64,000 nucleotides of DNA from Streptomyces apocyni. Lineage in GTDB: Bacteria; Actinomycetota; Actinomycetes; Streptomycetales; Streptomycetaceae. The notes under the pieces are model-generated. The model made no database searches. It saw only the letters and a program-made list of their open reading frames with translations, and was not told where the DNA came from. The stretch spans positions 115,085-179,084 of the forward strand of contig NZ_WHOM01000033.1 in the NCBI RefSeq assembly GCF_009739465.1, in the 5' to 3' direction. Both the position numbers and the translations under genes were made by a program. This document shows positions 39,852-39,962 of this stretch, in pieces (within the stretch, counting starts at the first letter, position 1; every line of letters begins with the position of its first letter).

Positions 39852-39877
39852 GGCCCCCGGGAAAGATCCCGGGGGCC
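39852..39877 (-). terminator. thrS terminator
   Basis: GGCCCCCGGG pairs perfectly with CCCGGGGGCC around AAAGAT. On the minus strand it is followed by TTTGCC, a short U-run. It lies 87 bp past the thrS stop, so the CRISPR-like element is inside the thrS 3' UTR. Its distal arm touches the first repeat by 5 bases. Confidence 0.88.
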
Positions 39878-39962
39878 GATCCCCGCACTGGCGGGGACAA
39901 GGTCGACATATGCCACGTCCGACCGATCGCGTCCGGATCATCCCCGCATTCGCGGGGACAAC
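39873..39962 (-). CRISPR. Mini CRISPR-like element: two type I-E-like repeats and one 32-nt spacer
   Basis: Two 29-nt repeat-like sequences at 39873-39901 and 39934-39962 are 61 nt apart, with a 32-nt unrelated spacer (39902-39933). On the minus strand the well-formed copy begins GTTGTCCCCGCG and ends GGGGATGATCCG; the core stem CCCCGC/GCGGGG encloses the loop GAAT. The other copy begins CTTGTCCCCGCC with the same stem and loop CAGT, and has diverged at its distal end (22 of 29 positions match). This geometry is that of type I-E arrays. No further repeat is seen at 61-nt steps in either direction, and no cas gene or leader is present. It ends one base before the thrS stop codon. Confidence 0.7.

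Follow-up and report, generated by a model that had tools for sequence, protein, structure and literature searches.

Mini-CRISPR arrays carried by archaeal viruses hold one or a few spacers, have no cas genes of their own and, aimed at relatives of their carrier, borrow the machinery of the host (Medvedeva et al. 2019, as outlined in PMC8730458). In these respects they resemble the subject of this report, a one-spacer CRISPR (clustered regularly interspaced short palindromic repeats) array immediately behind thrS, the threonyl-tRNA synthetase gene, in a 64,000-nucleotide (nt) stretch of Streptomyces apocyni (contig NZ_WHOM01000033.1, positions 115,085 to 179,084), hereafter the window. As outlined there, the viral arrays ride on viruses and act virus against virus, whereas the thrS array is attached to a chromosomal housekeeping gene and would act against alleles of that gene. 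Its guide does match close relatives of the carrier, the carrier here being the gene. A second precedent is intronless homing, or marker exclusion, by the phage nucleases SegF and SegG: in the account given in PMC2988022, a linked agent hits the other allele while its own allele is resistant. There the agent is a protein nuclease and gene conversion was shown; for the thrS array we predict a guide acting with host Cascade-Cas3, and conversion was sought and not seen. By sequence, the resident site is resistant and the others are susceptible, with exceptions at L003 and L313 (L numbers denote loci fetched, G numbers genomes).

Three further systems share parts of the design. CreTA and other regulatory CRISPR RNAs (crRNAs), as described in PMC8730458, are crRNA-like units outside a normal array that adjoin the gene they match; they pair with a promoter or gene of their own genome, whereas the own site of the thrS array lacks either the protospacer-adjacent motif (PAM) or the pairing. 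The delocalized crRNAs of CRISPR-associated transposons (CAST), in the same description, are lone repeat-spacer units that match a chromosomal gene; they belong to types I-F and V-K and direct transposition, whereas the thrS-array repeats are I-E-like. Finally, some archaeal spacers match housekeeping genes on the chromosomes of other species (PMC3285040, in the cases it reports). These sit in ordinary arrays away from the targeted gene, whereas the thrS guide adjoins its target gene.

We consider it fairly probable that a one-spacer type I-E mini-CRISPR array is here attached to a housekeeping gene, with a guide predicted to steer host Cascade-Cas3 against rival alleles. Five features can be read directly from the sequences: the array geometry, the resemblance between spacer and thrS, the PAM or recoding difference at the own site, the pairing with other alleles that is kept nearly everywhere outside every sixth position, and the repetition of the design elsewhere. 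By analogy, the array would work like intronless homing and virus-borne mini-arrays while belonging to neither class, most likely as a form of allele exclusion, and apparently represents a new kind of gene-against-gene competition. The parts, namely crRNA, Cascade and mini-array, are known; what would be new is their use by a housekeeping gene. We recognised no prior account of a housekeeping gene using a guide in this way in the open-access full-text literature, which leaves most subscription journals outside.

The array behind thrS

On the minus strand of the window, which is the sense strand of thrS, a repeat of 29 nt, a spacer of 32 nt and a second repeat of 29 nt follow one another from 39962 to 39873. 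The relevant features, all on the minus strand, are as follows.

39964..41940, minus strand: thrS, threonyl-tRNA synthetase, 658 amino acids (Pfam PF00587, PF03129 and PF07973)
40468..40470, minus strand: place of the PAM in the own thrS, here CGC (Arg), from the locus comparison
40436..40467, minus strand: stretch of the own thrS that corresponds to the target site (codons DAIGRTWQMST), differing from the spacer at its positions 3, 6, 12, 15, 18, 24 and 30
39934..39962, minus strand: repeat 1 (29 nt), GTTGTCCCCGCGAATGCGGGGATGATCCG, stem complete and 3' handle present (sequence and fold)
39902..39933, minus strand: spacer (32 nt), thrS-derived guide, GACGCGATCGGTCGGACGTGGCATATGTCGAC, 25/32 against the own thrS and better in relatives
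39873..39901, minus strand: repeat 2 (29 nt), CTTGTCCCCGCCAGTGCGGGGATCGGCCC, stem retained and handle gone (sequence and fold)
39852..39877, minus strand: thrS terminator hairpin, overlapping the end of repeat 2 (sequence; fold of 39845-39901)
39265..39813, minus strand: HIT-domain gene downstream of thrS (PF01230), targeted elsewhere by the guides of L002 and L080

The original prediction, made from this sequence, had described a solo-spacer element with type I-E geometry, the better repeat first and the degenerate one last, and its coordinates hold on the minus strand. The period is exactly 61 nt; the thrS stop codon occupies 39966-39964 and a single base separates it from repeat 1; the terminator hairpin does run into the distal repeat (39901-39873). 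Repeat 1 carries an 8-nt 3' handle, ATGATCCG, which is lost from repeat 2. The hairpin of repeat 1 has a folding energy of -17.4 kcal/mol, and RNA folding z scores are -4.5 for repeat 1 and -2.4 for repeat 2. The handle would be the one borne by a crRNA with this spacer, and, going by what is known of type I-E systems, the stem of repeat 2 would supply the part required on the 3' side of that crRNA. As also predicted, there are no cas genes near the array, and both a type I-E leader and multiple spacers are absent, the single spacer following directly behind the thrS stop. Between thrS and the HIT gene lie only repeats, spacer and terminator, so the array has no endonuclease of its own. No Rfam family matches the array at the gathering threshold; sub-threshold matches in this region mostly concern the terminator hairpin. 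We noticed no virus genes near thrS in the window, but did not look for them systematically.

In the whole 7.03 Mb genome the stem motif TCCCCGCNNNNGCGGGGA is confined to two places, both in the thrS array. Related I-E repeats with a 61-nt period are found in cas-bearing streptomycetes: the repeat CTGCTCCCCGCACCCGCGGGGATGGTCCC of L278, the cas locus of G130, is akin to that of the thrS array and not identical to it. The two-repeat layout recurs at the same place behind thrS in related species, with other spacers. Thus the genus does have I-E repeats of this kind, the spacer is not conserved in all relatives, and the assignment to a solo-spacer type I-E array stands.

Spacers, own sites and rival alleles

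We read thrS 3' ends in 147 of the 194 matching genomes of the genus (L001-L030, L161-L277). A two-repeat array is present in 11 and, under a strict pattern, a lone repeat in 13; the other 123 have neither, degenerate stems being counted with these. Further arrays came from a pattern scan of named genomes, and the array total is a lower bound: at least 27 distinct two-repeat thrS arrays with spacers of at least 29 nt. L058 (spacer identical to that of L004) and L119 (array identical to that of L002) were excluded before any count. Altogether 181 thrS loci were collected, of which 176 are distinct after removal of five duplicates; three of the 176 were dropped from the tree.

Some thrS loci depart from the two-repeat form. 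L040 and L070 have shortened spacers and stand outside the 27 arrays. The 13 single-repeat loci (for example L006, L009, L013 and L164) show a lone I-E-like repeat behind the thrS stop and no spacer; L185, counted among them, has two closely spaced stems. A lone repeat is perhaps a collapsed array or a landing site.

Spacers of the thrS arrays mostly derive from the adjoining genes: 24 of 27 match thrS or the HIT gene, at 12 sites. Eight of these sites are in the thrS sense strand (DLC, NPM, RDH, DPE, DAI, KIR, NGI and MQE, named by the codons at which they begin), three are antisense to thrS and one lies in the HIT gene. Scores reach 25 to 31 out of 32 for 23 of 26 spacers (30 to 32 nt used), and the 29-nt spacer of L057, which stands outside the shuffle test, scores 25/29. 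Control spacers stay below this range, with a maximum of 23/32 for both 108 shuffled and 27 reversed sequences. These matches, the 61-nt period in 19 of 23 listed arrays and the handle on the first repeat leave a negligible probability that we are looking at ordinary hairpins of the 3' untranslated region, or parts of terminators, that resemble repeats, even though the region behind thrS in many relatives holds different hairpins or lacks them. A chance hairpin or other untranslated-region structure is ruled out by the spacer matches and the period.

It is also highly improbable that the array gives ordinary immunity against thrS-bearing phages or plasmids. Matches to thrS do occur in 33 phage and 704 plasmid records. 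However, no phage record among the 33 bears a Streptomyces name (13 carry just the title 'Bacteriophage'), and the five Streptomyces plasmid records all fall below 60% protein identity. The window spacer itself has no good match in phage or plasmid sequences, with best E values of 7 and 0.1 in a search that left metagenomes outside, and an origin of this kind, on which the original prediction had touched, found no backing.

Within the 64 kb of the window, the best match of the spacer is the own thrS (25/32, in codon phase), the next best reaching 20/32. All seven differences fall at codon third positions, and five of them at spacer positions 6, 12, 18, 24 and 30. The genome has one full-length copy of thrS; a paralogue as an own-genome target was considered and rejected, there being only two partial matches (28-29%). 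At the PAM place the own codon is CGC, whereas 66% of the 170 other loci in the comparison have AAG or AAC. The five nearest guide-free relatives of the window locus all have AAG and no seed mismatch, with 0, 0, 0, 0 and 1 mismatches at positions other than every sixth. A protospacer with an AAG PAM for this spacer is therefore present in relatives and not in the own genome. The functions offered by the original prediction (cutting of the 3' region, a fossil, a copied hairpin) overlook that the spacer is thrS-like, fits relatives better than its own gene and has lost its own PAM; on the whole, that interpretation is partly supported.

For a comparison across arrays, we called a site targetable if it has an AAG or AAC PAM, no more than one mismatch across seed positions 1-5 and 7-8, and no more than four mismatches at non-sixth positions. 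The documented Streptomyces PAM is AAG, from the type I-E system of S. avermitilis (as reported in PMC4762764), and the PAM in relatives is mostly AAG too; we admitted AAC as well, since it is frequent in relatives at the HIT site and at the antisense sites. L055 and L106 were left out of the own-site tests because the site is missing from the locus. The own site is targetable in one of 22 testable cases, while other thrS loci are 61-94% targetable for 19 of the 22 spacers. The own difference often lies at the PAM (Arg CGN against Lys AAG in most others, at the DAI, NPM and DLC sites). It may also lie in the protospacer: one own gene reads DETKF where the guide reads DPEKF, L095 is recoded without amino-acid change, and L014 differs at both PAM and protospacer. 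Nearest relatives served as a control, and 64 of 110 guide-free neighbours are targetable. The nearest relative is targetable and the own site not in 11 comparisons, the reverse holds in one, and ten are ties (sign test 0.006).

Own targets also bear more unusual sequence than the sites of other guides. Rare bases at non-sixth positions number 56 of 513 in own targets against 230 of 6172 at other guides' sites; the corresponding figures are 8/57 against 40/687 at the PAM, and 25/228 against 118/2743 for rare residues. Ranked by recoding within its thrS, the own target window falls in the top 5% for 10 of 19 loci; for L001, L033, L053, L056 and L076 the figure is above 10%. With the site of the own guide excluded, untargetable sites average 42% where an array is present (27 loci), 32% where there is a single repeat (25 loci) and 16.5% in the 123 remaining loci, relatedness being uncorrected in these means; the thrS genes of single-repeat loci thus have more such sites than those of repeat-free loci. 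Among closely related lineages, a tight group (L005, L007, L014, L076 and L137, at thrS tree distances of 0.03-0.09) has differing guides, some aimed at sisters. The L076 guide meets the L007 thrS with no seed and no non-sixth mismatch. L005 and L007 each have a guide that fits the other as well as L014, and the PAM needed by the L005 guide is missing from L076 and L137.

These own-site data make it very unlikely that the crRNA pairs partially with its own thrS and represses it, as CreA does with creT. The spacer does resemble its own gene (25/32), and regulatory crRNAs often pair partially, according to PMC8730458. Nevertheless, the own PAM or seed is altered in most cases, binding being predicted here by the targetable rule; with a CCG PAM, Cascade binding in E. 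coli stayed at background in the experiments described in PMC5904413; and the genes of other species fit better. Cascade in the same genome, a further mark of CreA-type regulation, is absent from the own genome, and 18 of the 29 array genomes lack Cas7e. Autoregulation was our first idea, abandoned once the match to the own gene turned out to be poor.

The strongest sign of function is a period of six. We defined as private a spacer base found in fewer than 5% of other loci, and counted such bases in 21 spacers; L037, L055 and L057 are omitted from the count, L057 being displayed only. Private bases occupy 39 of 105 sixth positions, 5 of 105 at positions 3, 9, 15, 21 and 27, and 12 of 462 elsewhere. 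Counted once per site, position and base, they number 25 at sixth positions, 4 at other third positions and 11 elsewhere. For a coding sequence in codon phase, the sixth and the odd third positions are equally free. The one reader of a period of six that we can name is Cascade. In its complex with the target every sixth base is flipped out, as described in PMC5904413. That the private changes fall on bases which Cascade leaves unread suggests that pairing of the guide with the thrS of other strains was probably maintained as the unread bases drifted. This signature has no explanation if the spacer is accidental or dead.

The signature bears on another explanation, that the arrays are relics of autoimmunity: a type I-E system would occasionally capture DNA of its own cell or of relatives at a repeat-like place behind thrS, the cell would survive through a changed target, and the array would decay without function. 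The 18 array genomes without Cascade are consistent with this, as are the shortened spacers of L040 and L070 and the single repeats at 13 of 147 thrS 3' ends, which a collapsed array would leave (L185 with its two close stems among them); escape of the own site is expected under relics as well. Against this, 24 of 27 spacers come from the adjoining gene (or HIT) and not from anywhere in 8 Mb. Furthermore, after escape nothing would keep the pairing with other alleles, yet the private changes sit at unread sixth positions. We regard relics as an unlikely explanation.

Arrays beside other genes

We scanned 80 of the 116 Cas7e-negative genomes, the own genome included, and obtained a two-repeat hit in at least 28, some hits being pieces of longer arrays. 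Fifteen array regions were fetched, of which five match a neighbouring gene. For the cobN and ubiA-type genes, 61 genomes each were searched and the best-matching 30 loci of each taken, 29 or 30 being compared.

Two one-spacer I-E-like arrays, L315 (G022) and L313 (G024), lie behind cobN and have spacers that match it (PF02514 for L315); in a third cobN array, L344 (G043), the spacer addresses the stretch of cobN that is also matched by L315. For the L315 guide, 24 of 29 relatives are targetable and all 29 beat the own gene at non-sixth positions. One-spacer arrays L314 (G151) and L320 (G060) follow a UbiA-family gene (PF01040 for L314) and point to the same antisense site. With L314, the own gene has the PAM AAT and six non-sixth mismatches, whereas among 30 relatives 18 are targetable and 28 outmatch the own gene, with differences confined to positions 6, 24 and 30 in the best of them. 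With L320, the own PAM is ACG, 8 of 30 relatives are targetable and none matches better. Finally, a one-spacer array in L312 (G131, near position 4903) precedes an ffh-like gene, which we take to be ffh from its motifs; the match is 22/32 (background 20/32) with the PAM AAG, and the own differences form a block at the matched gene.

In the remaining 10 of the 15 regions (L316-L319 and L321-L326), there is no neighbour-gene match within about 5 kb, L322 having yielded no result at all, and some of these regions hold at least three repeats. L316, L317, L318, L319, L321, L323 and L324 are short arrays in Cas7e-negative genomes, several with the handle GTGTTCCG.

The recurrence of a guide beside its own target gene (thrS, cobN and the ubiA-type gene) has no explanation if the arrays serve a mating barrier at the level of the cell. 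Spacers would then be taken from the chromosomes of relatives during conjugation and would block incoming chromosomes, with nothing selfish in the position at thrS. Guides that fit the genes of relatives better than their own gene would be expected, and archaeal spacers against housekeeping genes of other species are reported in PMC3285040. On balance, a barrier of this kind seems quite unlikely to us.

Predicted allele exclusion

In the mechanism that we propose, the thrS transcript would carry the array, and Cas6e, if the host has one, would cut out the crRNA. Cascade and Cas3 would then destroy or block a rival thrS met in the cell, either one that comes in during mating or the resident one when the array-bearing allele enters a new cell, and the linked resistant allele would survive. 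The whole would amount to RNA-guided allele exclusion with borrowed effector proteins.

Several observations weigh against exclusion of rival alleles. The original prediction had allowed for a Cas6e-type protein elsewhere in the genome, and none was found in the whole genome, nor was a Cas7e or a Cas3 over the cut-off, in an assembly of 78 contigs with an estimated completeness of 100%. Since no effector proteins were found there, the guide is likely idle in its own genome; an array without cas genes may persist as a passenger or act only after transfer. Across array genomes Cas7e is present in 11 of 29, against 83 of 199 (p 0.84), the same 11, among them the genomes of L076, L080, L095, L124 and L137, having Cas3 over the cut-off; the idea that arrays are enriched in Cascade genomes was rejected, no association being seen. 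Between lineages with the same guide, there is no raised identity in 150-nt windows of the kind that gene conversion would leave. Expression, processing and interference are, for the thrS array, predictions from sequence.

Other difficulties concern the matches themselves. No target could be assigned to the spacers of L021, L179 and L073 (scores of 24, 22 and 21). For L037, L057 and L166, the share of other loci that the spacer fits is small (0, 6 and 9%), and 34% of other loci likewise have no PAM at the DAI site. The L003 own site passes the targetable rule and is the one case in 22; the L313 cobN guide still fits its own gene, where the own site is targetable (as are 18 of 29 relatives, with seven matching better). 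Own targets also show more recoding at sixth positions (11/95 against 57/1141 at other guides' sites). The targetable rule drew on knowledge from E. coli and was set after the first matches had been seen, with AAC accepted by choice.

We put forward more tentatively, as a possibility that we hold in some doubt, that these loci are a natural RNA-guided gene drive. In such a drive thrS, cobN, the ubiA-type gene and perhaps ffh would carry guide-only elements that borrow type I-E Cascade-Cas3 from a host against rival alleles, and the recoded linked allele would survive their destruction and spread. Sister lineages would then have come to hold different guides, some mutually aimed, and the gene pool would bear the resistance marks of past rounds.

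If allele exclusion is correct, single chromosomal genes turn the CRISPR system of the cell on other alleles of themselves, and adaptive immunity becomes tied to selfish-gene conflict and to bacterial species barriers. Engineered cleave-and-rescue designs exist, and the arrays would be their natural counterpart. An effect of type I-E systems on recombination among streptomycetes becomes testable, and the every-sixth-base signature would offer a sequence-only route to working guides that array finders may miss.

Elsewhere in the window, Rfam identifies five consecutive tRNA genes at 52136-52591 (plus strand) and two single ones at 44896-44967 and 45560-45631 (minus strand).
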